From: Oscillospiraceae bacterium
GTDB taxonomy: Bacteria; Bacillota; Clostridia; Oscillospirales; Oscillospiraceae
Assembly: GCA_017479425.1 (NCBI GenBank)
Contig: JAFVCD010000035.1
Span: 1 to 32,337, forward strand
Direction: 5' to 3'
DNA length: 32,337 bases
The notes under the pieces were generated by a model. The model was not told the DNA's origin. It saw only the letters and a list, made by a program, of their open reading frames with translations, and did no database searches. Both the position numbers and the translations under genes were made by a program. This document shows, piece by piece, positions 1 to 27,168 of the stretch; position 1 is the first letter of the stretch; every line of letters begins with the position of its first letter.

Positions 1-1
1 C

Positions 2-1129
2 GTCAATCTGAAGGACGAAAAGGGCAACCTGCTCCCCATCGAGCAGCGCGGGATAGGAACGGTCTATACAATGCTCTCGACGATGAGCATAAACCAGATA
101 AACCAAACGCTTCTGTCTTTGCCGAAGGGACACCCGGCGAAGGGGCCGCACGGTCTGTTCCTCAAGGCGCGTGAGAACCTCTGGGGCAATATTATAATCG
201 GTCTCGGAAACCGCCTTGCCGTGTACCAGAACCAGCTTGTGGATAAGATAACCCGCAACCACGACGTTGACCTCGTCCTTCCGGGAAAACGCCCGTGCGC
301 CTACTTCGTAATAATCTCCGCACAGGACAGCACCTATCGCTTTCTCAGCTCGCTGTTTTTCTCACTTGCGATACCTCAGCTCTCGGACTACGCCCGCCTC
401 CACTGTGAGGGTGGTCGGCTTCCGATCCTTGTGAATTTCTGCCTCGATGAGTATCTGAACATCGGCTATATGGAGGGCATGGCAGATGCGCTGAACTCCA
501 TTCGCGGCTTTAATATGAGCTGTCAGCTCGGTGTGCAGAGCCTTGCACAATGGCAGGAGAAGTACCCCGGCCACGAGTGGGAAAACCAGCTTGCGACGTT
601 CAATCAGACCATCTATATGGGCTGCAACGACCTTACCTCGGCTAAGTACATATCCGAGAAATGCGGCAAGATAACGATTGCGGTCACGAACAATCAGATG
701 CCGTTGGCGCCGCTTTTCTCTCCGGTTTACTCCACGACGAGACCGTACTCCCAGACAAAGAGCAATGTGCAGCGCGATCTGATGCAGACAGACGAAATAC
801 TGCGGTTGGAATATGAAAAATGTATAATTCTGTTCCAAGGTCACAAGCCCGCGCTGCTCTACAAGCTCACTCCGGAGGAGCTGCCGGACTACGAGAAGCT
901 GAAGCCCTGCCATATCATCGACTACACGCCGGCTTGGAGAAAAGCTGAGGAGTCTGAAGCCGAGCCGGAGCCCGTTGAATATGTGGAACAGGCAGAAAAA
1001 ACCGCCGAGCCAGAAGACGAGCCCGACGGAGATTATACAATTGACTATAGCACAATGACGCCGGATAACGGCATCGATGAAGCCCTTGGTTTTAACGAGG
1101 ATGATAACTACGATTTACCGGAAAGATGA
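2..1129 (+). CDS. VirD4/TraG-family type IV coupling protein, C-terminal part (5' truncated by window edge)
   Basis: This is the coupling ATPase that brings relaxase-bound DNA to a type IV secretion channel during conjugation, at the inner membrane. The reading frame is open to the left edge of the window (about 375 codons seen), so the first in-frame ATG at 71 is not the real start; the Walker A region is outside the window. Seen here are the Walker B-like segment with LDEYLNIG (bases ~435-460), the RGF..S.QLGVQSLAQW region that follows it in TraG/VirD4 proteins, and the GCNDLTSAKYISEKCG segment typical of the family C-terminal half. The last ~60 residues are a Glu/Asp-rich acidic tail, which in relatives contacts relaxosome or channel partners. 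The stop overlaps the xis region, suggesting coupled genes. Base composition is richer in GC than the following xis and int. Confidence 0.88.
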   Translation, partial: VNLKDEKGNLLPIEQRGIGTVYTMLSTMSINQINQTLLSLPKGHPAKGPHGLFLKARENLWGNIIIGLGNRLAVYQNQLVDKITRNHDVDLVLPGKRPCAYFVIISAQDSTYRFLSSLFFSLAIPQLSDYARLHCEGGRLPILVNFCLDEYLNIGYMEGMADALNSIRGFNMSCQLGVQSLAQWQEKYPGHEWENQLATFNQTIYMGCNDLTSAKYISEKCGKITIAVTNNQMPLAPLFSPVYSTTRPYSQTKSNVQRDLMQTDEILRLEYEKCIILFQGHKPALLYKLTPEELPDYEKLKPCHIIDYTPAWRKAEESEAEPEPVEYVEQAEKTAEPEDEPDGDYTIDYSTMTPDNGIDEALGFNEDDNYDLPER

Positions 1130-1146
1130 TTTTTATGGAGGAAAAA

Positions 1147-1365
1147 ATGAACTCAGAAAATAATAACAGAATTGATGTCAGATTGTCTGAAAAATACTTA
1201 CTTACAGTAAAAGAAGCGGCTTCGTATTTTGGCATAGGCGAACACCGGATAAGAGATATAGTTGATGATAATCCCGAAAAAATGATTGGAATATTCTGCG
1301 GCAATAAAAAGCTTATAAATAGAAAAAGAATGGAGGAGTATATTGATAATCTGCATGTTGTATAG
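1147..1365 (+). CDS. xis: Excisionase-like DNA-binding protein (Tn916 Xis type)
   Basis: A 72-residue protein that should bend DNA at the element ends and steer the neighbouring integrase towards excision. It has the short winged-helix/MerR-like excisionase pattern: a YLLTVKEAASYFGIG helix-turn-helix (residues ~18-34), then a basic stretch and a KKLINRKRMEEYI closing helix. Start choice: ATG 1147 has GGAGG at 1137-1141 with a 5-nt gap; in-frame ATGs at 1126 and 1135 lie before or on that ribosome site and are less likely. It is preceded by the coupling-protein gene and followed after 71 nt by int, the standard xis-int order. Function is assigned by family pattern and position. Confidence 0.85.
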   Translation: MNSENNNRIDVRLSEKYLLTVKEAASYFGIGEHRIRDIVDDNPEKMIGIFCGNKKLINRKRMEEYIDNLHVV

Positions 1366-1367
1366 TC

Positions 1368-1396
1368 TTGAATGCTTTTCAAGAAAATGGTATAAT
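1368..1396 (+). promoter_or_regulatory. Sigma-A-type promoter for int, extended -10
   Basis: TTGAAT (1368-1373), 17-bp spacer, TATAAT (1391-1396), with TGG just before the -10 box giving an extended -10. It starts 3 bp after the xis stop. The resulting leader of about 35 nt carries a GAGAGGAGA ribosome site before int. This would let int be expressed without xis. Confidence 0.75.
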
Positions 1397-1436
1397 ATAA
1401 GGGCTTACCGAGTCCTTTTCTGAGAGGAGACTTATT

Positions 1437-2678
1437 ATGTCAGAAAAGAGACGAGACAAAAGAGGACGCATCCTGAAAGACGGAGAATATCAGCGTCCAG
1501 ATGGGAGATACGAGTATAAATTCGTTGATATTTTTGGGAATAGACAAGCTGTTTATAGCTGGAAGCTTGTAGAAACCGACAAAGTTCCGCGAGGGAAAAG
1601 AGACTGCAAATCGCTCAGACAACTGGAAGACGATGTTCAGGAGCAGATAAAGAACAGAATAGACATCGCAAGCGGCAAAACTATTAGCTTTGAGGAGTAT
1701 TATAACAAATACATAAGTACAAAAAAGATCAAGCGATCCACGATGATTTCCTACAACTACATATACAACCATCGCATTAAGGATTTTATAGGTGGATATA
1801 AGCTCTCTGATATTTCGGAAAAGCTTATCGAAAAATGGGTTGAATACTGTATTAACGACGGCATTAAGCCATCAAGCGTCAGATCATATTTCTTAATTGT
1901 GTACTCAGTTCTCGATATGGCTGAGAGCCGAAAGGTAATTTCATTTAATCCTGCGAAAATCCCGTATGAGGAATTTAAGGATAAATACGATTCGAGGTCT
2001 GATAAACGAAAGGCATTGACACCTCAGCAGCAGAAGAAATTTATGGATTTCGTTTCGAGAAACAAAACTTATTCAAAGTATTATCCGCTATATACGTTTA
2101 TGCTTAATACAGGAATGCGTATTGGTGAGTGCTTTGGATTAACATGGGATGATGTCGATTTCGAGCAGAAGTTTATATCTGTTAAACGCACATTTATTTA
2201 TAAGAATACTTCTTGCTATTTCTTCCAGTCGCCAAAGTCTTACTGCGGAGTGAGAGATATTCCGATAACAGATGAAGTGTGCGAATTGCTTAGGAAGATC
2301 AAGAACGCTCAGCCTGTTAGTGTCAGGGAAAAAGAGGTTGAAGGACTCAGCGGTTTTGTTTTTCTCTTTAATTCGTATGGAACGATGTTCAACTGTGCTA
2401 ATTTCGACAAGCTACTTATCAATGCAGTTGCCGCTTATAATAAAGCTGCGAGAGCGATGGATATTGAAGAAATGCCGCAGATCAGCAGTCATATTTTTAG
2501 ACATACCTTTTGTGCGAGACTTTGCGAGAACTGCGATAACCTTAGATTTATACAAGAGGTCATGGGTCACGCCGACATCAACACTACAATGCAGTATTAT
2601 GCAGAGTTCTCAAAAGAGGGGAAGTCAAAACAGCTTAAAGCCTTGCAGGACAAGGGGTTTGGAGCATTTTTGTCGTAA
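1437..2678 (+). CDS. int: Tyrosine site-specific integrase, Tn916 family
   Basis: A 413-residue recombinase that cuts and rejoins DNA at the element ends for integration and, with Xis, excision. Residues 1-75 match the Tn916 Int arm-binding domain (RRDKRGRILKDGEYQRPDGR, SWKLVETD, PRGKRDC). Residues ~84-180 are the SAM-like core-binding domain. The catalytic domain follows with the full set of active residues: R228 (GMRIGE), K267 (SPKS), H352 and R355 (HIFRHTF), H378 (GHAD) and the nucleophile Y387 (MQYY; the adjacent Y388 is the alternative). Length equals the family norm (~405), so it is probably active. An inverted copy of a 9-bp repeat overlaps its stop codon, and three direct copies follow, as expected for arm sites. 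Confidence 0.96.
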   Translation: MSEKRRDKRGRILKDGEYQRPDGRYEYKFVDIFGNRQAVYSWKLVETDKVPRGKRDCKSLRQLEDDVQEQIKNRIDIASGKTISFEEYYNKYISTKKIKRSTMISYNYIYNHRIKDFIGGYKLSDISEKLIEKWVEYCINDGIKPSSVRSYFLIVYSVLDMAESRKVISFNPAKIPYEEFKDKYDSRSDKRKALTPQQQKKFMDFVSRNKTYSKYYPLYTFMLNTGMRIGECFGLTWDDVDFEQKFISVKRTFIYKNTSCYFFQSPKSYCGVRDIPITDEVCELLRKIKNAQPVSVREKEVEGLSGFVFLFNSYGTMFNCANFDKLLINAVAAYNKAARAMDIEEMPQISSHIFRHTFCARLCENCDNLRFIQEVMGHADINTTMQYYAEFSKEGKSKQLKALQDKGFGAFLS

Positions 2679-2749
2679 ATTTTTTACTACTTCCATTTTC
2701 TGGAAGAAACTTGCATTTTACGACAGAATTTACGACAGAATTTACGACA
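2671..2749 (+). repeat. TTTACGACA repeats: one inverted and three direct copies, likely integrase arm sites
   Basis: Direct copies of TTTACGACA are at 2717-2725, 2729-2737 and 2741-2749 (12-bp period, GAATTTACGACA unit), and the reverse complement TGTCGTAAA is at 2671-2679 over the int stop codon. A degenerate copy (ATACGACAA) is near 2774-2782. Tn916 Int is known to bind short repeats near the element ends with its N-terminal domain; the position here fits that role, which is inference. Confidence 0.7.
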
Positions 2750-2797
2750 AATGACCCGTAATGATTTGAAAAGATACGACAACTTTTGTAAACTGTT

Positions 2798-2853
2798 TTT
2801 GACTATTCTGTTGAAAACAGGTCAAATGCGTAATGTTTTGACAAGATTTGACA
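2798..2853 (+). repeat. TTTGAC(A) repeat cluster with an inverted repeat
   Basis: TTTGAC 2798-2803 and GTCAAA 2821-2826 flank a perfect CTGTT-gaa-AACAG stem (2808-2820). Two more copies, TTTGACA at 2837-2843 and 2847-2853, are spaced exactly 10 bp, one helical turn. This may be the core or Xis-binding part of the element end. It has no T-run, so it does not look like a terminator. Confidence 0.5.
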
Positions 2854-2881
2854 GCTTATGGAAGACAATTCATTTTAGGGC

Positions 2882-2910
2882 TTGAAAAATGAATAAATAT
2901 TATGTATAAT
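2882..2910 (+). promoter_or_regulatory. Sigma-A-type promoter of the OLE RNA operon
   Basis: TTGAAA (2882-2887), 17-bp spacer, TATAAT (2905-2910). Predicted transcription start near 2917, only a few bases before the closing stem of the OLE RNA at 2919. It is either the native operon promoter left intact by integration or one supplied by the element end; the sequence alone does not decide. Confidence 0.8.
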
Positions 2911-2916
2911 AAAAAA

Positions 2917-3583
2917 ATTACGGCGGTGCAGTATCCTAGTCGGAGCCCTGTCTCCCAGGAAGGGCCTAAAAATCCTTTGAAGGGCACATCTATGAAGCCT
3001 CTTGTGTTTGCTTGGAATGCCAGTTCCGGGTGGATGCTGGAGGGAGGTCTATGCGAACTTTGATCGTCTTAGCCTGCATCGGACGGGCGTCCCCGAATGG
3101 CATCGGGAATTCGACCCGGCCGGTGTGGAGACCCGACTCTGTGGTGAGGCGTACTCCCATTTGCGGTATGCGATCTCATTACGGACCGGGGTTGAACCTG
3201 TATTGCGGTGCGTTTTTACGGAATTCTTTTTTCTCAGTGCTGTGTGCAGAGTAGCCTGCCTTGAGTGGGAAAGAGCGGATTGGAGAGCTTAAGCGGCAAG
3301 CGGTCCCCGGCCGGGATCGCAGGGTCGATATCTCTATGAAATATTTTCTGCAAAAGAGGCTAAAGAGACGGTTCGCTCCGTTATGGAAAACATCTAGGCT
3401 GTCGATAATAGGTATTGCGGGGGATTGCAGTACGGACTCAGTGGCAATCGGGTAACGCGCAGGGCAACGGCGCGTGCGGCGCCCCAAGGGGAAACCTCCT
3501 CCACCGGCAACGGGAGGCGGCGCCGCGGGAAATCCAACCCGACCTATGCCGTAAGGTTTACTCCGCGATATGCCGCCGTACAT
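2917..3583 (+). ncRNA. ole: OLE RNA (Ornate Large Extremophilic RNA)
   Basis: A ~665-nt segment without a credible protein gene, rich in nested helices. An 8-bp stem closes the whole molecule (TACGGCGG 2919-2926 with CCGCCGTA 3573-3580). Inside it, TCGGGT 3448-3453 pairs with ACCCGA 3537-3542; within that GCGGCGCC 3476-3483 pairs with GGCGCCGC 3519-3526 and CCTCC 3495-3499 with GGAGG 3513-3517. CCCGA 3092-3096 pairs locally with TCGGG 3103-3107. OLE RNAs are about 600 nt, are known to bind the membrane protein OapA encoded directly downstream, and sit in operons with dxs, tlyA, argR and recN; all of these follow here in that order. The RNA-OapA complex is membrane-bound and linked to resistance to alcohol, cold and magnesium stress in Halalkalibacterium (Bacillus) halodurans. 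Identity rests on size, structure and gene context, not on an alignment. Confidence 0.9.
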
Positions 3584-3604
3584 ATAATAAAAAGGTAGCT
3601 TAAA

Positions 3605-4144
3605 ATGCGTAAAACAAACTGGCGCTGGGTAATTTCGATAACCCTCATCGCTGTAGTAACAAGTATGGTGTTCTCGCTCGTTTCAAGCGAGATACTTGAC
3701 GGCGCGGGCTATATTGTCGCCTCGCTGCTGCTTCTGAGCTTCATTGCCATCGGTATCGTGTTCGATATGCTCGGCGTCGCGGTGACAGCGGCGCGCGAGG
3801 CTCCGTTTCACTCCATGGCGAGCCATAAGGAGTACGGCGCGAGCGAGGCGATTAAGCTTGTGCGCGCCTCAGAGAGAGTAAGCTCAATATGCAACGACGT
3901 TGTCGGAGATATCTCAGGCATCGTCTCGGGTGCGACCGCAGCAGTGCTCGCCGCGAATTTCACACGGGACTTTTCGCTCTCAGCCGTAATTACACAGATT
4001 ATAGTGACCGGCATCGTCGCCGGACTTACCATCGGCGGCAAGGCGCTCGGAAAGAGCCTCGCCATAAACCGCAATACGGAGATAGTTCTCCTTGCGGGAA
4101 AGGTCTCCGCCTTTTTCACCGGCGGAGGTAAAAAGAAAAAATAA
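3605..4144 (+). CDS. oapA: OLE RNA-associated membrane protein OapA
   Basis: A 179-residue membrane protein that in H. halodurans binds OLE RNA and holds it at the cytoplasmic membrane. Four hydrophobic segments are visible at residues ~7-28, 35-60, 103-118 and 125-146. Between the second and third is a conserved-looking cytoplasmic stretch, TAAREAPFHSMASHKEYGAS, followed by SSICNDVVGDISGIVSG. The style resembles the DUF21/CNNM Mg-transport domain. The C-terminus is very basic (GGGKKKK), suited to RNA or lipid head groups. The ATG at 3605 lies 21 nt past the end of the OLE closing stem, with a modest AAAGGT ribosome site at 3591-3596, so RNA and mRNA are one transcript or processed from it. 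dxs follows after 12 nt. Assignment is by topology, size and context. Confidence 0.88.
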   Translation: MRKTNWRWVISITLIAVVTSMVFSLVSSEILDGAGYIVASLLLLSFIAIGIVFDMLGVAVTAAREAPFHSMASHKEYGASEAIKLVRASERVSSICNDVVGDISGIVSGATAAVLAANFTRDFSLSAVITQIIVTGIVAGLTIGGKALGKSLAINRNTEIVLLAGKVSAFFTGGGKKKK

Positions 4145-4156
4145 GGATGAATTTAT

Positions 4157-6055
4157 TTGTCGATATTAGATTCAATTCAAAGCCCGAGAGATGTTAAGTA
4201 TCTCACAGAGGATGAACTTAGAACTCTTGTTGACGAGGTGAGAGCTTTTACTGTCGACGCCGTCAGCAAAACAGGCGGGCATCTTTCAAGCTCCCTCGGC
4301 GTGGCGGAGATAACAGTCGCCATACACAGAGTTTTCGATACGAGCCGCGACAGGCTCGTTTTCGACGTCGGTCACCAGAGCTATATCCACAAAGCGCTCA
4401 CCGGCAGGCGCGATAAATTCGACACACTTCGCTCCTTCGGCGGAATCGCAGGCTTTCCGAAGCCCTCGGAGTCGGAGCATGACGCCTTCATCGGCGGTCA
4501 CGCCTCGGCGGCGGTTTCGGAGGCGCTCGGTATGGCGCGGGCGCGCACGATAGCGGGGGAGGACTATTCCGTTATCGCCCTGCTCGGCGACGGTGCGCTC
4601 ACCGGCGGCATGGCTTATGAGGCGCTGTGCGACGCGGGTGCGAGCCGCGAGCCGCTCATCGTAATCCTCAACGACAACGGCATGAGCATAGCGAAAAACG
4701 TCGGAGGAATGGCAAAGTACCTGACGCGTCTTCGCCTGAGGCGAGGCTATCGCACCTTCAAAACCATCTACCGCAAGGCGACAAGCGCCGTTCCGGGCGG
4801 CAAATGGATATACAGATTTACGCATAAGCTCAAGGAGAACATAAAGCGCGGTGTTTTCAACTGCGGAATGTTCGAGGACTGGGGCTTTTCATATCTCGGC
4901 CCGGTGGACGGACATGACCTGGGTGAGGTCATCCGCGCACTCGAGGTCGCCCGAGATCTCAGGGGGCCGGTCATAATCCACGCGATAACGACGAAGGGCA
5001 AGGGCTACGCGCCCGCGGAGAAAAATCCCGAGGCATTTCACGGCGTCGGCGCGTTCGACAGGGAAACAGGGCTTACTCCGCCTCCTGCGGAGTCCTTTGC
5101 CACACGCTTCGGCGAGTATCTGACCTCCCTTGCCGAGGATGATAAGGATATCTGCGCGATTACTGCTGCTATGGCACCCGGAACGGGACTGTCCGGCTTC
5201 GGCAGAACGTACCCAAACCGCTTTTTTGACGTGGGAATTGCAGAGGAGCACGCCGCGGGTATGGCGGCGGGTCTTGCCGCCGGCGGTATGAAGCCGGTGC
5301 TCGCGGTGTATTCGACCTTCCTCCAGCGCTCATACGATCAGCTTATTCACGACATCGGCATACTCTCTGAGCACGTCGTGCTCGCGGTTGACAAGGCGGG
5401 GCTTGTGGGCGAGGACGGCGAAACGCACCACGGCGTTTTCGACGTGAATTATCTGCGTTCCGTTCCGAAAATGACGGTGCTCTGCCCTGCGTCCTACGCG
5501 GAGCTGAGGGATATGCTCTCGTTTGCGCTCTATGATATCACCGGCCCCGTCGCGGTGCGCTATCCGAAGGGCGGCGAGGGCGAGTACAAGGAGCGCGGAG
5601 TTGATAAATCAAAGCTTCTTCGCACAGGCGAGGATTTCACTATAATTACCTACGGAATAAACATAAACGACGCGGTAAAGGCGGCGGATATACTTGCAGA
5701 GAGAGGAATCTACTGCGACGTTTTGAAGCTCGGAAGCATAAAGCCGCTTGACGAGGATGCGATAATCGCATCGGTATCGAAAACCGGACGGCTATACGTC
5801 CTTGAGGAGTGCGTCTCCGGCGGCTGCGTCGGCGAGGAGATCGCCTCGATGCTTGTAAAGGCGGGGCAGAGCCCGAGAAGACTCGTTCTCCGCAACCTCG
5901 GTGACAGCTTCGTGCAGCACGGAAAGGTACAGCGCCTGCGCGAAGAATACGGGCTCGACGCGGAGAGCGTAGCGCGGGAGATAGAGGAGAATATCCCTGA
6001 CAGAATCAAGGAACGGAAGAAAAAAGAGGTCGAAAATGCCAAAGAAACGACTTGA
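4157..6055 (+). CDS. dxs: 1-deoxy-D-xylulose-5-phosphate synthase
   Basis: First enzyme of the MEP isoprenoid pathway: joins pyruvate and glyceraldehyde 3-phosphate using thiamine diphosphate, in the cytoplasm. The product also feeds thiamine and pyridoxal synthesis. 632 residues, the usual length. Visible motifs: VGHQSYIHK with H73, GGHASAAVSEALGMA (113-127), the cofactor motif GDGA (144-147) continuing to LNDNGMS (171-177), and the Pyr-domain segment DVGIAEEHAAGMAAGLA. The start is TTG at 4157 behind AAGGATGA; no ATG fits the conserved N-terminus. It overlaps tlyA by 20 nt. Presence in the OLE operon agrees with the known order, where isoprenoid genes flank the RNA. Confidence 0.97.
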   Translation: MSILDSIQSPRDVKYLTEDELRTLVDEVRAFTVDAVSKTGGHLSSSLGVAEITVAIHRVFDTSRDRLVFDVGHQSYIHKALTGRRDKFDTLRSFGGIAGFPKPSESEHDAFIGGHASAAVSEALGMARARTIAGEDYSVIALLGDGALTGGMAYEALCDAGASREPLIVILNDNGMSIAKNVGGMAKYLTRLRLRRGYRTFKTIYRKATSAVPGGKWIYRFTHKLKENIKRGVFNCGMFEDWGFSYLGPVDGHDLGEVIRALEVARDLRGPVIIHAITTKGKGYAPAEKNPEAFHGVGAFDRETGLTPPPAESFATRFGEYLTSLAEDDKDICAITAAMAPGTGLSGFGRTYPNRFFDVGIAEEHAAGMAAGLAAGGMKPVLAVYSTFLQRSYDQLIHDIGILSEHVVLAVDKAGLVGEDGETHHGVFDVNYLRSVPKMTVLCPASYAELRDMLSFALYDITGPVAVRYPKGGEGEYKERGVDKSKLLRTGEDFTIITYGININDAVKAADILAERGIYCDVLKLGSIKPLDEDAIIASVSKTGRLYVLEECVSGGCVGEEIASMLVKAGQSPRRLVLRNLGDSFVQHGKVQRLREEYGLDAESVAREIEENIPDRIKERKKKEVENAKETT

Positions 6056-6830
6056 CCAGATGCTTGTGGACGGCGGCTACTTCACCTCCCGCGAGAGGGC
6101 GAAGGCAGTAATCATGGCGGGTGAGGTTTATATAAACGGGCAGAAGGCGGATAAGCCCGGTGTGAGCTATGACGAGAATGCCTCGATAGAGGTGCGCGGA
6201 GGCGAGCTGAAATACGTTTCCCGCGGCGGACTGAAGCTCGAGCGCGCGCTTGAATATTTCGCCGGCGACGTTCGAGGCAAGGTATGCATCGACTGCGGCG
6301 CCTCCACGGGAGGCTTTACGGACGTGATGCTCCAGAACGGTGCAAGGCACGTTTACTCTGTCGACGTAGGCTACGGTCAGCTTGCGTGGAGCCTGAGGCA
6401 GGACGAGCGCGTGACGGTTATGGAGCGCACGAACGTCCGCTACATAACGCCGGATATGTTCCCGGACAGGCCGGAGGTCGGCACGATAGACGTGAGCTTT
6501 ATATCTACCGCGCTGATTTTTCCTGCGCTTTCTACTGTCCTCACGCCCGGCGGCACTGTCTATTCCCTCATAAAGCCGCAGTTTGAGGCTGGAAAAGACA
6601 AGGTCGGCAAGAAGGGCGTCGTGCGAGAGAAAGAGACCCACGCCGAGGTAATTGAGAAATTCATCGAAAACGCCGAAAAGAGCGGATTTTCCGTCAAGGG
6701 CGTAACCTGGTCGCCGATAAAAGGCCCCGAGGGAAATATTGAATTTTTAGCAAAGCTCGTGCTCGACGGCATGAAGAGCGAGGAGATCGACGTCATGGCG
6801 GTCGTGGACGAAGCGCACGGGAGGCTGTAA
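6036..6830 (+). CDS. tlyA: TlyA-family rRNA (cytidine-2'-O)-methyltransferase
   Basis: A 264-residue S-adenosylmethionine-dependent methyltransferase; studied TlyA proteins 2'-O-methylate cytidines in 16S and/or 23S rRNA and affect capreomycin sensitivity. The old label 'hemolysin A' is probably misleading. Residues 1-60 form an S4 RNA-binding domain (KKRLDQMLVDGG, SRERAKAVIMAGEVYING). SRGGLKLE (62-69) links to the Rossmann domain with the SAM loop CIDCGASTGGFTDVML (84-99); LIKPQFE is the late family motif. The ATG at 6036 lies 20 nt inside dxs, behind AGAGGT. nadK starts 3 nt after its stop. A standard member of the dxs-tlyA-nadK-argR-recN unit of Firmicutes. Confidence 0.95.
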   Translation: MPKKRLDQMLVDGGYFTSRERAKAVIMAGEVYINGQKADKPGVSYDENASIEVRGGELKYVSRGGLKLERALEYFAGDVRGKVCIDCGASTGGFTDVMLQNGARHVYSVDVGYGQLAWSLRQDERVTVMERTNVRYITPDMFPDRPEVGTIDVSFISTALIFPALSTVLTPGGTVYSLIKPQFEAGKDKVGKKGVVREKETHAEVIEKFIENAEKSGFSVKGVTWSPIKGPEGNIEFLAKLVLDGMKSEEIDVMAVVDEAHGRL

Positions 6831-6833
6831 AAC

Positions 6834-7652
6834 TTGAGTAAAATACTGCTCTGCCCGAATCCGAAGCGCGACAGAGGCTGCCGCGTGACAAATTCAGTAC
6901 GCGATATGCTCATAAATGCCGGCGGAGAGGTCGAGGTCTGCACCATTGACGATATGACCGAGGAAAGGCTCCACTGGGCAGACTTTGCGATAACCTTCGG
7001 CGGCGACGGTACGATACTCCACGCCGCGCGCAACGCCTGTGCCTACGGCGTGCCGGTGCTCGGCGTAAACCTCGGACACAAGGGCTTTATCGCGGAGCTT
7101 GAGATGCGCGATATCGATATGCTGAGAAGGCTCATTTCCGGCTCTGTGCGCACAGAAAAACGCATGATGATAGACGTTGAGCTTATAAGAAAGGGAAGCG
7201 TAATATATAAGGATTTTGCCCTCAATGACGTGGTCGTCGGAAGCATGGGCAGAACGCTGCCTATAAGCGCCTACGGCGACGAGAGAAAGATAACCTCCTT
7301 CTCCGGCGACGGAATAATCGTATCAACGCCGACGGGCTCGACTGCCTACAATCTATCGGCCGGCGGCCCGATACTTGAGCCGGACACAGAGAATATTATT
7401 CTGACTCCGATCTGTCCGCACACGCTCTTTGCAAAGGGTTTCGTGCTCAGTCCGAACCGCACCGTGACAGTCGAGGTGGAGGACTTCGGGCGCAAGAGCG
7501 CTTACGTTTCGACGGACGGCGCAAAGCCGGTTTCGCTCGAGCCGCGCGACAGGATCGTTGTAACGCGCTCTGAAAAGGTCGCGGAGTTTATAAAGCTCAC
7601 TGAGAGAAGCTTTTACGAGAGAGTGAGCGAAAAGCTGGGAGACAAGCTATGA
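6834..7652 (+). CDS. nadK: NAD kinase
   Basis: Phosphorylates NAD to NADP in the cytoplasm and so sets the NADPH pool. 272 residues, normal length. It shows the kinase signature TFGGDGTILHAAR (GGDG at 56-59), LGHKGF (80-85 region), and the substrate-binding TPTGSTAYNLSAGGPI. The start is TTG at 6834 with GGGAGG about 8 nt upstream; the next codons SKILLCPNP give the expected first beta strand. Its stop overlaps the argR start by 4 nt (ATGA), pointing to translational coupling. Confidence 0.97.
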   Translation: MSKILLCPNPKRDRGCRVTNSVRDMLINAGGEVEVCTIDDMTEERLHWADFAITFGGDGTILHAARNACAYGVPVLGVNLGHKGFIAELEMRDIDMLRRLISGSVRTEKRMMIDVELIRKGSVIYKDFALNDVVVGSMGRTLPISAYGDERKITSFSGDGIIVSTPTGSTAYNLSAGGPILEPDTENIILTPICPHTLFAKGFVLSPNRTVTVEVEDFGRKSAYVSTDGAKPVSLEPRDRIVVTRSEKVAEFIKLTERSFYERVSEKLGDKL

Positions 7653-8095
7653 AAAACCTCAGACAGAAGAAAATCCTTGAAATAATCGCAGAAAAAGAGG
7701 TTGAAACGCAGAATCAGCTCATCGAAGAGCTGAATTCCGTCGGCGTTCACGCAACGCAGGCGACGGTTTCGCGCGATATTAAGGAGCTCAGACTCGTGAA
7801 GGAGCTCACGACCCACGGTACATACCGCTATATGCCGCCCTCCGAGGACGTGGAAAACCACTCTGAGCGCCTCAGAAAGATATTCCACGAGTGCGTTACA
7901 AGCTACACCTGCGCGCAGAATATCGTGGTCATCAAGACCCTGCCCGGGCTTGCGTCCGCGGCTTGCAGCGCAATAGACAGAATGGATATCGAAAAGCTTG
8001 CGGGCTCGCTCGCGGGCGACGATACGGCGTTCATTGCGATGATGGACGTAAAGAGCGCCGAGGAGCTGTGCGATCTGATAGGAAAATATATGTAA
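7649..8095 (+). CDS. argR: Arginine repressor ArgR/AhrC
   Basis: A 148-residue hexameric regulator that senses L-arginine and binds ARG-box operators in arginine synthesis and breakdown genes. N-terminal winged helix: residues 5-50, with the recognition helix TQATVSRDIKEL (36-47). C-terminal oligomerisation and arginine-binding domain: LPGLASAACSAIDRM and GSLAGDDTAFIAM, where the two aspartates of GDDT bind arginine. ATG 7649 overlaps the nadK stop. ArgR sits beside recN in many Firmicutes, and no arginine gene is in this window, so it acts in trans. No ARG box was identified in the operon. Confidence 0.96.
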   Translation: MKNLRQKKILEIIAEKEVETQNQLIEELNSVGVHATQATVSRDIKELRLVKELTTHGTYRYMPPSEDVENHSERLRKIFHECVTSYTCAQNIVVIKTLPGLASAACSAIDRMDIEKLAGSLAGDDTAFIAMMDVKSAEELCDLIGKYM

Positions 8096-8107: not shown

Positions 8108-9796
8108 ATGCTTCGTTCACTGACAATAGAAAATATCGCCGTAATCGAGCAGGCTGAGATAGAGTTCGGCGCCGGCTTCAACGTGCTGACGGGTGAGACG
8201 GGAGCCGGAAAGAGCATAGTCATAGACTCCCTCGAGGCGGCTCTCGGCTGGAGGACAAGCGCGCAGATAGTGCGCTCCGGCGCGAAGAGCGCGAAGGTCA
8301 CTGCGGTCTTTACCGCCGACGGGTGCGGGGACTGGTGCCGCGAAAACGACATCGAGCCCGAGGACGGCGAGCTCATCCTCACAAGGAAAATCACCGAGGA
8401 CGGGCGCTCGACCTGTCGCGTTAACGGAGAGCCGGTCGCTGCGGCGCAGGTGCGCGCGCTCGGACTGCGCCTCATCGACATCCACGGTCAGGGCGACGGC
8501 CAGCGCCTCACGGATGAGCGCAGCCACCGCGACTATCTCGATTCCTTCGGCGGCTACGATAAGACGCTCGAAGCTTACAAAAACGCATGGAATGACTACG
8601 TCTCAGTCAAAAAAGAGCTGGATTCGCTCACTCTTGACGAGGCGGAAAAGGCACGCAAGGTCGATATGCTGGGCTATCAGATAGCGGAGCTTGAGCGCGC
8701 GGACATAAAGATTGGGGAGTTCGATGAGAAAAACGCGAGAAGAACGCTTCTCAAAAACGCGGGCAAGCTTTCAAACGCTCTCTCCGACGCTAAATCCGCC
8801 CTCCTCGGTTCCGAGAGAAGCGACGGCGCGCTGAGCCTCATTGAGGCGGCGCTCGACTCCATCGAGCGGGCTGCGAAGCTCTCGGAGAGCTTCGCGGACG
8901 TGGCGTCAAGGGTGCGCGACCTGCGATTTATGTGCGAGGACGTAGCGCTCGAGGTGCGCGAGAGCGCAGAGGAGCTGGAGTTTGAGCCGGAGGAGCTCGA
9001 TGAGCTCGACGAGCGGCTCGATACGTTAAAGCGCGTGCTGAGAAAATACGGCGGCGACGAGGAGAGCGCGATCGCGTTCCTTGAAAGCGCCCGCGAGGAA
9101 CTGAGGGGTATCGAATATGCCGATGAGCGGCGCGAGGAGCTTACGGAGAAGCTCAAAAAGCTCGAAAAATCGGCGAAAACCGCCGCGAACGAGTTAACAA
9201 AGGCGCGAAAGAGCGCAGGCGAGAGGCTTTCCGCGAGAATTGAGGCGGAGCTGTCTGCTCTCAGCATGAAGGGCGCGAGGTTTGCAGTTTCGCTCGGCGA
9301 GGGCGGCGAGCTGACGAGCCACGGGCAGGACGACGTGCGCTTTTTAATGAGCGCAAACGCGGGCGAGAACTTCGGAAGGATCGCGAAGGTCGCCTCCGGC
9401 GGCGAACTCAGCCGCGTTATGCTCGCGATGAAGAGCGTGCTCAGTGAGCGCGACCCGACCGACAGCATGGTATTCGACGAGATAGACACCGGTGTTTCCG
9501 GCATCGCGGCGCAGAGAGTGGCGGAGAAGCTTGCCTCAGTCGGCGCGCGCCATCAGGTTATATGCGTTACCCATCTTCCGCAGCTTGCGGCGATGGCGGA
9601 TACGCATTTCTCAATTAAAAAAGAAATCGCCGAGGGCCGCACCTACACAAAGGTCGAGCGCCTTGACGAGAGCGGCAGAGCCGCGGAGCTCGCGCGTCTG
9701 ACCGGCGGAGACAATATAACTGAAACCACGCTCATGGCGGCAAAGGAGCAGCTTTCGGCCGCAGAGAAGTTCAAAAATACACAGTTTGACAAATAA
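8108..9796 (+). CDS. recN: DNA repair protein RecN
   Basis: An SMC-like ATPase that gathers at DNA double-strand breaks and tethers ends for RecA-dependent repair. 562 residues, normal length. Walker A GETGAGKS is at 29-36, followed by a charged, Ala/Glu/Lys-rich coiled coil (about 150-350). The C-terminal head has the signature SGGELSRVMLAMK (around 430-442) and Walker B MVFDEIDTGVSG (about 454-465), then CVTHLPQLAAMAD with the switch histidine. It is the last gene of the OLE operon: no terminator is seen after it, and its final codons (FDK stop) contain the -35 box of the tyrS promoter. Confidence 0.97.
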   Translation: MLRSLTIENIAVIEQAEIEFGAGFNVLTGETGAGKSIVIDSLEAALGWRTSAQIVRSGAKSAKVTAVFTADGCGDWCRENDIEPEDGELILTRKITEDGRSTCRVNGEPVAAAQVRALGLRLIDIHGQGDGQRLTDERSHRDYLDSFGGYDKTLEAYKNAWNDYVSVKKELDSLTLDEAEKARKVDMLGYQIAELERADIKIGEFDEKNARRTLLKNAGKLSNALSDAKSALLGSERSDGALSLIEAALDSIERAAKLSESFADVASRVRDLRFMCEDVALEVRESAEELEFEPEELDELDERLDTLKRVLRKYGGDEESAIAFLESAREELRGIEYADERREELTEKLKKLEKSAKTAANELTKARKSAGERLSARIEAELSALSMKGARFAVSLGEGGELTSHGQDDVRFLMSANAGENFGRIAKVASGGELSRVMLAMKSVLSERDPTDSMVFDEIDTGVSGIAAQRVAEKLASVGARHQVICVTHLPQLAAMADTHFSIKKEIAEGRTYTKVERLDESGRAAELARLTGGDNITETTLMAAKEQLSAAEKFKNTQFDK

Positions 9797-24232: not shown

Positions 24233-24309
24233 GGGAGCTTAGCTCAGCTGGTTAGAGCGCCTGCCTTACAAGCAGGAGGTCACAGGTTCGAGCCCTGTAG
24301 CTCCCACCA
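24233..24309 (+). tRNA. tRNA-Val (anticodon UAC)
   Basis: Full cloverleaf: acceptor GGGAGCT with AGCTCCC, D arm GCTCAGCTGGTTAGAGC, anticodon stem CCTGC/GCAGG with TAC in loop CTTACAA, TTCGAGC T loop, and an encoded CCA. First of a cluster of five. Confidence 0.98.
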
Positions 24310-24320
24310 TTCTCGTTATA

Positions 24321-24423
24321 TCAAATCAAATGCTTGTTATTTGATTTGAAGAGGAGCAGGGAAGGAACGGATGCGCAGCGTTGGCGAAAGCCGAAGCGGA
24401 GTGCAGTGAGTTTCCTGCGACGA
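24321..24423 (+). repeat. Inter-tRNA structured spacer repeat, copy A
   Basis: Begins with a perfect 11-bp hairpin (TCAAATCAAAT 24321-24331 with ATTTGATTTGA 24339-24349), then AGAGGAG, a GGC-GAAA-GCC tetraloop hairpin, the block GCGGAGTGCAGTGAG, and CGACGA touching the next tRNA. GCAGGGAA (24356-24363) can pair with TTTCCTGC (24411-24418). A related copy precedes tRNA-Cys. Function unknown. Confidence 0.7.
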
Positions 24424-24500
24424 GGCCGAGTAGTTCAGTTGGTTAGAACGCCAGCCTGTCACGCTGGAGGTCGAGGGTTCGAGCCCCTTCTCGGTCGCCA
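24424..24500 (+). tRNA. tRNA-Asp (anticodon GUC)
   Basis: Acceptor GGCCGAG with CTCGGTC (one G-U pair), anticodon stem CCAGC/GCTGG with loop CTGTCAC (GTC), T loop TTCGAGC, discriminator G as required for aspartate, encoded CCA. Confidence 0.98.
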
Positions 24501-24503
24501 TTT

Positions 24504-24579
<76 letters not shown>

Positions 24580-24582
24580 TCT

Positions 24583-24658
24583 GCGGCTTTAGCTCATCTG
24601 GTAGAGCGCCACCTTGCCAAGGTGGAGGTAGCGAGTTCGAGCCTCGTAAGCCGCTCCA
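24583..24658 (+). tRNA. tRNA-Gly (anticodon GCC)
   Basis: Acceptor GCGGCTT with AAGCCGC, anticodon stem CCACC/GGTGG with loop TTGCCAA (GCC), encoded CCA; 3 nt after tRNA-Phe. A strong hairpin follows at once. Confidence 0.98.
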
Positions 24659-24701
24659 TTTGCCGCCGATAACAAAATATCGGCGGCAAAATATTTAATT
24701 T
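24659..24701 (+). terminator. Terminator-like hairpin after tRNA-Gly
   Basis: A perfect 13-bp stem, TTTGCCGCCGATA (24659-24671) with TATCGGCGGCAAA (24678-24690), loop ACAAAA, then the AT-rich tail ATATTTAATTT. The tail is weak, so read-through to tRNA-Cys is possible. Confidence 0.7.
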
Positions 24702-24711
24702 ACCTTGTTCG

Positions 24712-24824
24712 ATAAAATCAGATGCGTGCATTTGATTTTAAGAGGAGAAGTGGAGCCGCAAAGTTCAGTTTTGGCGAAAGCTCTTTCAGAACCGAAACGG
24801 AGTGCAGCGAGCTTCAAACGACGA
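24712..24824 (+). repeat. Inter-tRNA structured spacer repeat, copy B
   Basis: Same layout as copy A: a hairpin (AAAATCAGATG from 24714 with CATTTGATTTT ending 24738, one G-U pair), AAGAGGAG, GGCGAAAGC, the block CGAAACGGAGTGCAGCGAG, and CGACGA directly before tRNA-Cys. Length and the conserved blocks match copy A, but the middle has diverged. Confidence 0.7.
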
Positions 24825-24899
24825 GGTGGCATAGCCAAGTGGTAAGGCAAGGGTCTGCAAAACCCTGATTCCCCGGTTCAAATCCGGGTGCCACCTCCA
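24825..24899 (+). tRNA. tRNA-Cys (anticodon GCA)
   Basis: Acceptor GGTGGCA with TGCCACC, anticodon stem AGGGT/ACCCT with loop CTGCAAA (GCA), T loop TTCAAAT, encoded CCA. Discriminator T (U73) is the expected identity base for cysteine. Confidence 0.98.
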
Positions 24900-24906
24900 A
24901 AATATC

Positions 24907-24938
24907 TGCTGCAAGCATTCGCTTGCAGCATTATTTTT
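24907..24938 (+). terminator. Intrinsic terminator after tRNA-Cys
   Basis: TGCTGCAAGC (24907-24916), loop ATTC, GCTTGCAGCA (24921-24930), tail TTATTTTT. It ends just before the ribosome site of the next gene. Confidence 0.88.
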
Positions 24939-24949
24939 AGGTGATGATT

Positions 24950-25546
24950 ATGGAAAGATCTCTCGATGTCTTTACTTTTGAGCTCGCTTCCAAAACTCCG
25001 ACTCCGGGTGGAGGAGGCGCGGCTGCTCTCTGTGCCGCGCTTGCGGCGGCTCTCGGCTCGATGACTGCGAATTTCACCCTCGGTAAGAAGAAATATGCAG
25101 AGTTTGACGATGAAATGCGCGCAATAATCAGCGAATGCGCCGTTTTGCGCTCGAGAATGCTTTTGCTTATCGAAGCCGACGCCGCTGCGTTCGAGCCGCT
25201 CAGCCGCGCCTATGCGATACCGAAGGACGATCCGGGGCGCGATGAGACGCTCGAGAAGTGCCTTCTTGACGCCGCCGCTGTTCCGATGGAGATCGCTCGC
25301 CTATCGCGCAGGATCATGGAGCTTGCCGATTTACTTGAGCAGCACGGCAGTGCACTTATGGTCTCCGATGCAGGCTGCTGCGCCTCGATCGCCTCGGCAG
25401 CGCTTGATTCGGCGGCTCTCAACGTGCTTGTGAACACGCGCCTTATGAAAAACCGCGACAAAGCCGAAGAGCTGAACACGAAATTGCGGAAGCTAATGGA
25501 AAATAAGCCGGAAACTTACTCAAGAGTTTTCAAAAGGCTCTCTTGA
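24950..25546 (+). CDS. fchA: Cyclodeaminase/cyclohydrolase family protein (FchA-like)
   Basis: A 198-residue, mainly helical protein of the formiminotetrahydrofolate cyclodeaminase family; members convert formimino-THF to methenyl-THF or hydrolyse methenyl-THF in one-carbon metabolism. Family marks: TPTPGGGGAAALCAALAAALGSM (16-38) lining the folate site, a helix with EADAAAFEPLSRAYAIPKD (family F-x-x-v--A pattern), and the closing SAALNVLVNTRLMKNRDKAEEL. Start: ATG 24950 with AGGTGA at 24939-24944; the upstream GTG 24941 and ATG 24944 overlap that site. Bifunctional FTCD has a transferase half that is missing here. No other folate or histidine gene is adjacent, so the exact reaction is open. 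Confidence 0.87.
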   Translation: MERSLDVFTFELASKTPTPGGGGAAALCAALAAALGSMTANFTLGKKKYAEFDDEMRAIISECAVLRSRMLLLIEADAAAFEPLSRAYAIPKDDPGRDETLEKCLLDAAAVPMEIARLSRRIMELADLLEQHGSALMVSDAGCCASIASAALDSAALNVLVNTRLMKNRDKAEELNTKLRKLMENKPETYSRVFKRLS

Positions 25547-25571
25547 ATTTTTGTAACCGTTGTGTTACTAT
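25542..25571 (+). promoter_or_regulatory. Candidate promoter for the SLH-protein gene
   Basis: TTGAAT (25542-25547, over the fchA stop), 18-bp spacer, TACTAT (25566-25571). It would leave a leader of only ~14 nt, just covering the AGGAGGG ribosome site, so the call is tentative. Confidence 0.4.
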
Positions 25572-25591
25572 TTAAGAGAGGAGGGATCGGA

Positions 25592-26848
25592 ATGAGAAAA
25601 ATGACGGCACTTTTGCTTGGTTTTGCGCTCTTGTGCGCGCTCATTACGCCGTTCGCGTTTGCTGACGACGAGTTTCAGCAGCTTTATTTCGGCAACGAGA
25701 AGGTTATGAACGTTCAGCCGAAAACCAACGATCTACTCATTCTGCATCCTGAGAACGGGCCGAATATTGATCTCAACTATTCCGTCAGCTGCGATCCTGC
25801 GATCGGAGTTATCGACAAACTTGAGGACGGTGTTGTAGATCAGTATATGCTCCGTATCTCTGACAGAAAGCCGGGAATATCAGGCAAAATATACGCGGAG
25901 AAGGACGGAGTTAAATATGCGATTGATGTAAATCTTGTCTATCCCAAGGAGGGCTTTTACAGCACCCCGGACAAGACCTCGGAGAGCTACGTTGTGCGCG
26001 ACAATGACGGTCGCTACACCTTTGAGTACGACGCCTCGTCGAGAAGCATCTATTTTATCACAAGCGGAGCTAAACTTGACAGCGTGGTGTCCAATTCCAA
26101 GGACGTTATGACAACGCTCTCTGCGGATAAGACGGTCGCCGTTATCGCTGCTAAAAGCTCGATGAAGGGCGACAAATCTGTTATCATCAGCTATAATCTT
26201 ATCGAGGACGGCAAACCGAGCCACAGCATACAGACTATCTATTTCAAGGAACACGTCGATGAGCCGGAGAAGCCTGAGGAGAGTAATGACGACGCAAAGG
26301 AGCCCGAGGAGGAGCTTCTTCCTGCGGCGAAATATACCGATGTTCCGGAGGATTCCTGGATGGCGGAGGCGGTGGACTACGTCTCACGACGCGGTCTTTT
26401 CAACGGCTACCCGGACGGTTCGTTCGGAGTCGATGACAGCATGACCCGCGCGATGATGGCGGTGGTTCTGCACAGAATTGCCGGAAAGCCGGCTCTCAGC
26501 GGCAAAAGCGACTTCGCGGACGTATTGGATTACGCTTGGTATGCAAAAGAGGTTGCGTGGGCGGCTGACAAGGGATATATCAAGGGCGTCGGCGATAATC
26601 TTTTCGAGCCGGACCGCAATATAACCTACGAACAGCTCTGCGCGCTTCTGCACAGACTCTCCGGTTCTGCGGAGGTGACCGGCGACGATATTGCCGGAGT
26701 TTCACCTTGGGCGCAGAGCGCAATGAAATGGGCGACGGAGAATAAGCTGATCAATATCAGCGATGGCGGCGTCAATCCACAGGATGATGCGATGAGGGCA
26801 CACGTCGCGGATATAATAATGAAATATAAAAAGCTTGACAACAAGTGA
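25592..26848 (+). CDS. Secreted protein with three S-layer homology (SLH) domains
   Basis: 418 residues, exported. A signal peptide (RKMTALLLGFALLCALITPFAFA, cut likely after residue 24) is followed by a beta-rich region of unknown function (25-220), a Glu/Pro/Asp-rich linker (~221-246), and three SLH motifs (~248-295 YTDVPEDSWMAEAVDY...GYPDGSFG; ~308-355 FADVLDYAWYAKEVAWA; ~366-410 VSPWAQSAMKWATENKLI). SLH domains bind pyruvylated or other secondary wall polymers, so this is a cell-surface protein. The third repeat is the least regular. Start: ATG 25592 with AGGAGGG 7 nt upstream; the in-frame GTG 25562 would put charged residues ahead of the signal peptide. I do not recognise the N-terminal domain. 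Regions 25-220 may be the functional part. Confidence 0.88.
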   Translation: MRKMTALLLGFALLCALITPFAFADDEFQQLYFGNEKVMNVQPKTNDLLILHPENGPNIDLNYSVSCDPAIGVIDKLEDGVVDQYMLRISDRKPGISGKIYAEKDGVKYAIDVNLVYPKEGFYSTPDKTSESYVVRDNDGRYTFEYDASSRSIYFITSGAKLDSVVSNSKDVMTTLSADKTVAVIAAKSSMKGDKSVIISYNLIEDGKPSHSIQTIYFKEHVDEPEKPEESNDDAKEPEEELLPAAKYTDVPEDSWMAEAVDYVSRRGLFNGYPDGSFGVDDSMTRAMMAVVLHRIAGKPALSGKSDFADVLDYAWYAKEVAWAADKGYIKGVGDNLFEPDRNITYEQLCALLHRLSGSAEVTGDDIAGVSPWAQSAMKWATENKLINISDGGVNPQDDAMRAHVADIIMKYKKLDNK

Positions 26849-26882
26849 CTAAATCATTAAAATACTTTCACGGGGGTGCGGT

Positions 26883-27083
26883 ATGGAGCAGAAGAGAATA
26901 GACAGAATTTCAGAGCTTACGCGCATATCCCGTGAAAGACCTCTAACCGAGGAGGAGCTCGCTGAGCGCGCCGAGCTTCGCTGCGAGTACATCGAGGCGG
27001 TCAAGGCGAGCCTGACAGGCCAGCTCGACAACACCTACGTCGTTGACGAGAAGGGCAATAAGCGTCCTCTCGGCAAAAAATAA
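26883..27083 (+). CDS. ynzC: DUF896 (YnzC family) small protein
   Basis: 66 residues, a helical hairpin: KRIDRISELTRISRERPLTEEELAERAELRCEYIEAVKASL, then a flexible tail with NTYVVDEKGNKRPL typical of DUF896. B. subtilis YnzC is linked to the SOS-region yneA-yneB-ynzC operon; its role is not established. GGGGGTG precedes the ATG. Its TAA stop ends exactly one base before tRNA-Leu, which must be cut from the same transcript or be made from its own start within the coding region. Confidence 0.93.
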   Translation: MEQKRIDRISELTRISRERPLTEEELAERAELRCEYIEAVKASLTGQLDNTYVVDEKGNKRPLGKK

Positions 27084-27168
27084 GCGGGTATGGTGAAATA
27101 GGTAGACACAAGAGACTTAAAATCTCTCGGGGCGACCCGTGCCGGTTCGAGTCCGGCTACCCGCACCA
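27084..27168 (+). tRNA. tRNA-Leu (anticodon UAA)
   Basis: 85 nt with a long variable arm (class II): acceptor GCGGGTA with TACCCGC, anticodon stem AGAGA/TCTCT with loop CTTAAAA (TAA), variable arm CGGGGCGACCCG, T loop TTCGAGT, discriminator A, encoded CCA. No gap to the upstream ynzC stop. Confidence 0.98.

Follow-up and report, generated by a model that had tools for sequence, protein, structure and literature searches.

Genes and features of the locus

The window, a stretch of 32,337 nucleotides from an Oscillospiraceae genome (G000; 84% complete, 1.77 Mb, 44 contigs), carries a gene for the OLE RNA with oapA and the dxs, tlyA, nadK, argR and recN genes behind it:

2882..2910, plus strand: predicted ole promoter, TTGAAA (2882-2887), 17 nt, TATAAT (2905-2910); 11/12 consensus; expected start ~2917
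2887..2906, plus strand: AAATGAATAAATATTATGTA, weak ARG-box-like match within the promoter spacer; 7.9 bits with a matrix from relatives' argG upstream regions
2907..3592, plus strand: OLE RNA (RF01071), 392.4 bits, full model; RNA body ~2917-3582
2919..2926, plus strand: P1 closing stem, 5' arm TACGGCGG; exact complement of 3573-3580, covariation
2941..2954, plus strand: 5' arms of P3 (2941-2946) and P3.1 (2948-2954); partners 3375-3380 and 3365-3371, 13 bp
3309..3312, plus strand: GGCC palindrome of the P9 loop; corresponds to the kissing-loop contact between the RNAs of the dimer in the published cryo-EM structure
3573..3580, plus strand: P1 closing stem, 3' arm CCGCCGTA; exact complement of 2919-2926, covariation
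3605..4144, plus strand: oapA, membrane protein of 179 aa with a DxxxD motif; from position, motif and homologues
4157..6055, plus strand: dxs (TIGR00204, 689 bits)
6036..6830, plus strand: tlyA (TIGR00478, 286.5 bits)
6834..7652, plus strand: nadK, NAD kinase (PF20143, PF01513)
7649..8095, plus strand: argR (PF01316, PF02863)
8108..9796, plus strand: recN (TIGR00634, 533.5 bits)

Identity and fold of the OLE RNA

The first-pass annotation, made from the letters alone, had proposed an OLE RNA here and suggested a covariance-model search of the region, which returned a significant match to Rfam family RF01071 at 2907-3592 (E 4.4e-112), above the 50-bit cut-off and spanning positions 1-616 of the 616 in the model. 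This match, rather than single-sequence folding, is the strong evidence for OLE; the sequence folded singly gives a modest z of -2.5, and 1 of 20 shuffles folds equally well. The RNA is a known one that had been correctly found, and it adds no new kind. Relative to the model it carries extra insertions of about 15-30 nt in three places. The 8-bp closing stem noticed at the same time is absent as a pair from the Rfam structure line and was therefore tested separately. Its arms hold up as a covarying pair: across related loci, own-species arms pair better than arms swapped across species (mean score 7.05 versus 5.49; scores of at least 6 in 83% versus 35%), as judged on 87 of 97 unique loci, the remaining 10 being unparsed.

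The P3/P3.1 helix, for which a membrane-spanning role has been proposed (PMC12265935), measures 12-16 bp in 91 of the 93 parsed loci (97 in total, 4 unparsed) and 11 and 19 bp in the other two, counts that come from an energy-based duplex fold of the extracted arms and may be too high. Its sequences vary among loci, and the length of its 5' strand is near constant. The palindrome of the P9 loop is described as serving dimerisation (PMC12286853). Among the 62 loci parsed for it (35 of the 97 were unparsed), 59 have GGCC, one has GTAC and two lack a palindrome. The P13 loop GGCAAC is visible in the covariance-model alignment of the window. The P4a palindrome has the form CATCTATG in G000 and its relatives G026 and G027 where CATCGATG is common; the site is so variable among relatives that no inference is drawn from it.

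The full-model match, P1, P3/P3.1 and the P9 loop are shared with the OLE RNAs of Halalkalibacterium halodurans and Clostridium acetobutylicum, as are the oapA neighbour and the order of the genes that follow. The window differs from these in its separate promoter, in that no L7Ae/OapC was found in its genome, and in the conjugative element that ends in the promoter.

OapA and the downstream operon

The assignment of the membrane protein gene to oapA, also made in the first pass, is supported by motif, synteny and homologues. The DxxxD motif, named for OapA in PMC11332333, corresponds to D98 and D102 and is invariant in alignments of 23 and of 31 sequences. Four helices had been proposed for the protein, and hydropathy is compatible with that number, with hydrophobic stretches at about residues 5-33, 28-65, 99-117 and 122-149. 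No Pfam or NCBIfam profile matched above its cut-off, CNNM reaching E 0.18, and no relative of solved structure was found at E <= 1. Profiles of OapA and MpfA are collinear over the membrane domain at E 9e-4, yet with a probability of just 23%. OapA of the window shares with known OapA its place after ole, the motif, a hydrophobicity compatible with four helices and a possible distant CNNM resemblance, with no notable difference, and differs from MpfA/CorC-type CNNM transporters in being without their CBS and CorC domains. The gene order dxs-tlyA-nadK-argR-recN, as first read from the sequence, is confirmed by Pfam and NCBIfam profile matches; further downstream lie six ordinary tRNA genes (Val, Asp, Phe, Gly, Cys and Leu; window 24233-27168).

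The oapA start codon lies 12 nt after ole in the same direction, and no terminator-like site was seen in the window either between ole and oapA or between the integrase gene upstream and ole. As nothing terminator-like separates them, ole is probably read on into oapA. Some other members of the genus (for example G020, G005 and G006) have a hairpin with a T run just 3' of OLE (by eye), which is not present in the window; because only some genus members have it, co-transcription of ole and oapA may differ between species.

The L7Ae family (PF01248), that of OapC, was matched in 46 of 60 genomes and was not found in G000 (84% complete), G026 (95%) or G027 (98%), where a diverged copy could escape. 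The OLE complex of these genomes may therefore be simpler than the H. halodurans type with OapC.

A predicted promoter of its own

Scored against the consensus promoter hexamers, 71 of 97 ole loci reach at least 9 of 12, as against 3 of 95 stretches taken 330-400 nt upstream and 322 of 1,940 shuffled sequences, 17% of which are already at score 9. The set goes back to 116 loci, 10 of them without a recognisable 5' core and the rest collapsed to 97 unique sequences. The genes upstream of ole vary by lineage, which fits an independent promoter, and we predict from these sequences that in Oscillospirales a sigma-A-like promoter belongs to ole itself. For H. halodurans, a single polycistronic transcript is reported to cover the cluster (PMC12265935).

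The end of a conjugative element at the ole promoter

An element inserted into the ole promoter region, absent from the first-pass annotation and newly seen here, occupies the start of the window:

1..2867, plus strand: right end of an integrative conjugative element; the contig starts inside the element
71..1129, plus strand: VirD4-like coupling protein, CD1115 family, incomplete (NF045973 193 bits; PF02534 E 1e-30)
1437..2678, plus strand: Tn916-type tyrosine integrase (PF02920 E 3e-29, PF00589 E 5e-28)
2717..2752, plus strand: direct repeats, TTTACGACA three times; probably arm sites of the integrase
2868..2894, plus strand: putative attR, inverted repeat ATTCATTTT / AAAATGAAT around AGGGCTTGA; exact 9-bp repeat
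2878..2898, plus strand: 21-bp core GGGCTTGAAAAATGAATAAAT, common to both junctions and the empty site of G026

The alignment to G026, which is 98% identical, starts at 2868. What lies upstream of that point in G026 is ispA together with a hairpin bearing a T tract (by eye), and the window has the VirD4-like fragment, which covers profile positions 185-441 of 442 and stays below the NF045973 cut-off of 250 bits, together with the integrase. The ispA gene of G000 is found on contig C3, where it is joined to foreign DNA that carries a RepA_N gene. Because the two ends lie on different contigs, we infer rather than observe that they belong to one element.

The repeat TTTACGACA occurs four times in the window, once on the minus strand (2671-2679), against 0.18 expected, and twice at the other end of the element (L075) against 0.05 expected. 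The putative attR has a 9-nt centre within its inverted repeat, a layout as expected of a tyrosine-recombinase core. No exact copy of the 21-bp core was found in any other of 158 related loci. The core spans the -35 of the ole promoter and is carried by both junctions, so the insertion leaves both hexamers of the promoter whole. At the left junction lies an extra stretch, of which 25 bp are identical to the ole upstream region of the sister species G027 and may be a trace of previous insertions at this site.

Like integrative conjugative elements of the Tn916 family, the element has an integrase, genes for conjugation and two ends, and its target is known in the empty state. It shares with that family the combination of PF02920 and PF00589 in its integrase, the VirD4-like coupling protein and the RepA_N gene at the other end. 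It differs from them in the position of its core over the ole -35 and in an integrase that is nearly without relatives in the searched genomes. Among the matches listed for 394 genomes of the order and 391 of the class, where at most 4 candidates were scored per genome, its own copy stood alone at E <= 1e-90; in 34 genomes of the genus, one 34%-identical protein appeared besides it at E <= 1e-60. IMG/VR gave one integrase relative, at 36%, and no copy of the 21-bp core.

Host range and linkage of ole and oapA

The named relatives recovered through OapA are mostly Oscillospiraceae MAGs, some labelled as coming from rumen or from goat, sheep or deer gut, and the cultured ones include Papillibacter, Sporobacter and Oscillibacter. 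A gut-type Clostridia host had been put forward in the first pass as worth noting. It is not new: Fernando and Breaker (PMC11332333) report 2,822 OLE matches in Bacillota genomes, uncultured gut lineages included, so that host and operon are as expected. The OLE class has also been termed extremophilic/anaerobic (PMC9723947).

Of 80 named OapA loci, 78 have OLE before the gene, and in 6 of these it is cut at a contig end. The two exceptions are L115 and L153. In L115 no OLE is found in the 567 nt before oapA (positions 1-567), which begin with a transposase-like end (by eye); ole may have been displaced or lost there, and oapA-dxs-tlyA-nadK-argR-recN remain. L153 belongs, with L221, to an uncultured Bacilli genome (G822) that has OLE and oapA on separate contigs; the 1.5 kb or more that follow its OLE lack oapA. 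G037 (L062, L200) has 5.8 kb after OLE without oapA, and its oapA lies by dxs on another contig. Thus, ole and oapA appear unlinked in G822 and G037. In L144 the two genes are about 2.5 kb apart (5473-8001), and a large reading frame, lipoprotein-like, lies between them. L121 shows OLE and OapA twice in a 9-kb perfect inverted repeat within its contig, probably an assembly artefact. The contigs of five genus members (G003, G001, G032, G018 and G030; L189 and L193-L196) break inside OLE, and an OLE broken in this way can escape the model search, as it did in G001 and G003.

OLE and MpfA are nearly exclusive among the sampled relatives

The covariance model alone called OLE in 41 of 60 genomes, the window's own included. 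The absence so recorded for G001 and G003 was wrong, as truncated copies with oapA stand at contig ends in both, and with these added the count is 43; G001 is positive solely through a terminal OLE fragment of 139 nt, followed by oapA, which the model missed. The MpfA domain PF03471 was over its cut-off in 15 of the 17 genomes without OLE and in one of the 43 with it, G007, which holds both (Fisher p 4e-11, a value that overstates independence because the 60 genomes are related). MpfA-type proteins thus occur mainly where OLE is absent. A renewed search for OLE in the 17 gave no match at E <= 0.01; G028 (74% complete) and G040 (55% complete) have neither OLE nor MpfA, and a CorC match below the cut-off in G038 was scored as absent. 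All seven CorC-domain proteins checked, from six OLE-less genomes and G007, have the CNNM+CBS+CorC architecture.

The same division runs through the genus of the window, with PF03471 in 1 of 29 genomes that have OLE and 4 of 5 that do not. In three of these four OLE-less genomes with PF03471, namely G009, G014 and G016, dxs comes after ispA and ole-oapA is missing from between them; in the fourth, G024, dxs was not matched. A quick dxs tree places G014 and G016 inside the OLE-bearing genus and G009 near its base, the latter on half the columns, and it supports few separate losses. By these placements, OLE has been lost within the genus, with the metal-transport protein MpfA present, at least once and perhaps twice. 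An exclusion trend across Bacillota is already published (PMC11332333), and the fine-scale cases within one genus are the addition made here.

ARG-box-like sites at ole promoters

A match to argG above the cut-off was found in 21 of 35 genomes searched, and the argG upstream regions of 20 loci show ARG-box-like sites, often over the -35 (by eye). We built a matrix from 19 argG regions, with the sites chosen by the ARG-box consensus TGNATWWWWATNCA; all 19 score at least 12 bits and 84% at least 14, as training sets would. The site in the window is below argG-site strength. At 6 bits or more the matrix finds a site in 24.7% of 97 ole promoters; the shares are 5.4% for shuffles and, for 298 promoter-like controls, 3.4% (p 3e-11 against controls, uncorrected for kinship; 22-24% versus 3-4% after clustering). 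Counts made with the consensus are weakly above shuffles, at 33% versus 18% for score 10, a poorer separation than that of the matrix or of a motif at the -35. This motif, TTGHATATT, looks like the ARG boxes before argG of related genomes. It stands at the -35 in 33 of the 97 ole promoters and in 2 of the 298 control promoters of the same loci, a count that is no blind test since the motif was picked after the promoters had been viewed.

ArgR of H. halodurans is reported to bind OLE RNA in a pull-down, with an in vitro confirmation cited as unpublished (PMC10898510). A plain reading of the ARG-box-like sites would be autoregulation of an operon that bears argR, and ArgR control of the ole promoter is a candidate, offered as a testable guess. 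In G000 and G027 (98% complete), argR is kept in the ole operon and no argG match was seen. No paper on an ARG box or a mobile element at ole was found in the open-access literature searched.

Discussion

OLE, one of the largest structured RNAs of bacteria, has no settled biochemical role, and the points of interest of this copy are the element junction in its promoter, the ArgR lead and the swap within a genus. These surroundings open two questions to testing. One is whether the work of OLE-OapA is also that of MpfA, since one genus mostly carries one or the other, with operons otherwise matching in the three known cases; the second is whether ArgR, reported as a binder of the RNA, also controls ole transcription.

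With a probability of roughly three in four, we read the locus as a full-length OLE gene with its own promoter, whose RNA forms a dimer held by OapA in a metal and stress device that MpfA can replace. The RNA of 2907-3592 would be transcribed from the sigma-A-like promoter, probably on into oapA, and most likely takes up the fold and dimer known from published structures, with the P3/P3.1 stem and the P9 kissing loop. OapA, as a CNNM-like membrane protein, most likely holds it at the membrane. The pair would most likely act at the membrane as a device for homeostasis of divalent metals and under stress, whose place MpfA-type transporters could take. What we observe directly are the identities of RNA and protein, the promoter pattern, the operon, the fact that OLE and MpfA nearly exclude each other among the relatives sampled, and an element that leaves -35 and -10 intact; we infer expression, dimerisation, membrane location and metal function.

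Were OLE merely a long cis-acting leader of the oapA-dxs operon, its position directly before oapA, in the same direction and with no terminator-like site between, would be expected, and so would the similar promoter that OLE-less G014 and G016 retain before dxs (by eye); this is nonetheless improbable given the two genomes in which ole and oapA appear unlinked and the membrane ribonucleoprotein described in PMC12265935. That the insertion silenced ole and left a decaying copy is more improbable still. The element has taken the place of ispA, of the terminator-like hairpin (by eye) and of everything else upstream of about 2868, but the -35, spacer and -10 are the same as at the empty site of G026, the RNA scores 392.4 bits against 390.6 there, and the two OapA proteins are 99% identical. 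A weightier doubt, though one we consider unlikely to prevail, is that the exclusion of OLE and MpfA reflects lineage coincidence and no functional replacement. The genomes compared are related, and the MpfA proteins of G014, G016 and G024 are so similar (86% and 96% identical to that of G014) that they speak for few events in the genus. However, the MpfA proteins of G009, and of G035 and G036 from two further genera of the family, are distinct, 29-42% identical to that of G014, CorC matches recur in further families where OLE is missing, and the trend reported in PMC11332333 is Bacillota-wide.

No second insertion was found in the searches above, so the preference of the element for this site rests on a single insertion, and a chance choice of an AT-rich target by a Tn916-like element could also account for it. 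A wider scheme for Oscillospirales, in which ArgR binds the ole promoter within an arginine-ArgR-OLE loop and the Tn916-type element uses the -35 as attachment site and rebuilds the promoter, strikes us as doubtful. For the TTGHATATT and ARG-box signal, we give about even odds to a lineage-specific -35 preference that involves no ArgR operator. The ole sites are weak beside the argG training sites, scores under 6 bits are found for about 75% of ole promoters, the ARG box is poorly kept in its second half, and TTGHATATT is not in the window's own promoter. Against such a preference stand the rarity of TTGHATATT in control promoters of the same loci and an enrichment by the matrix that survives clustering.
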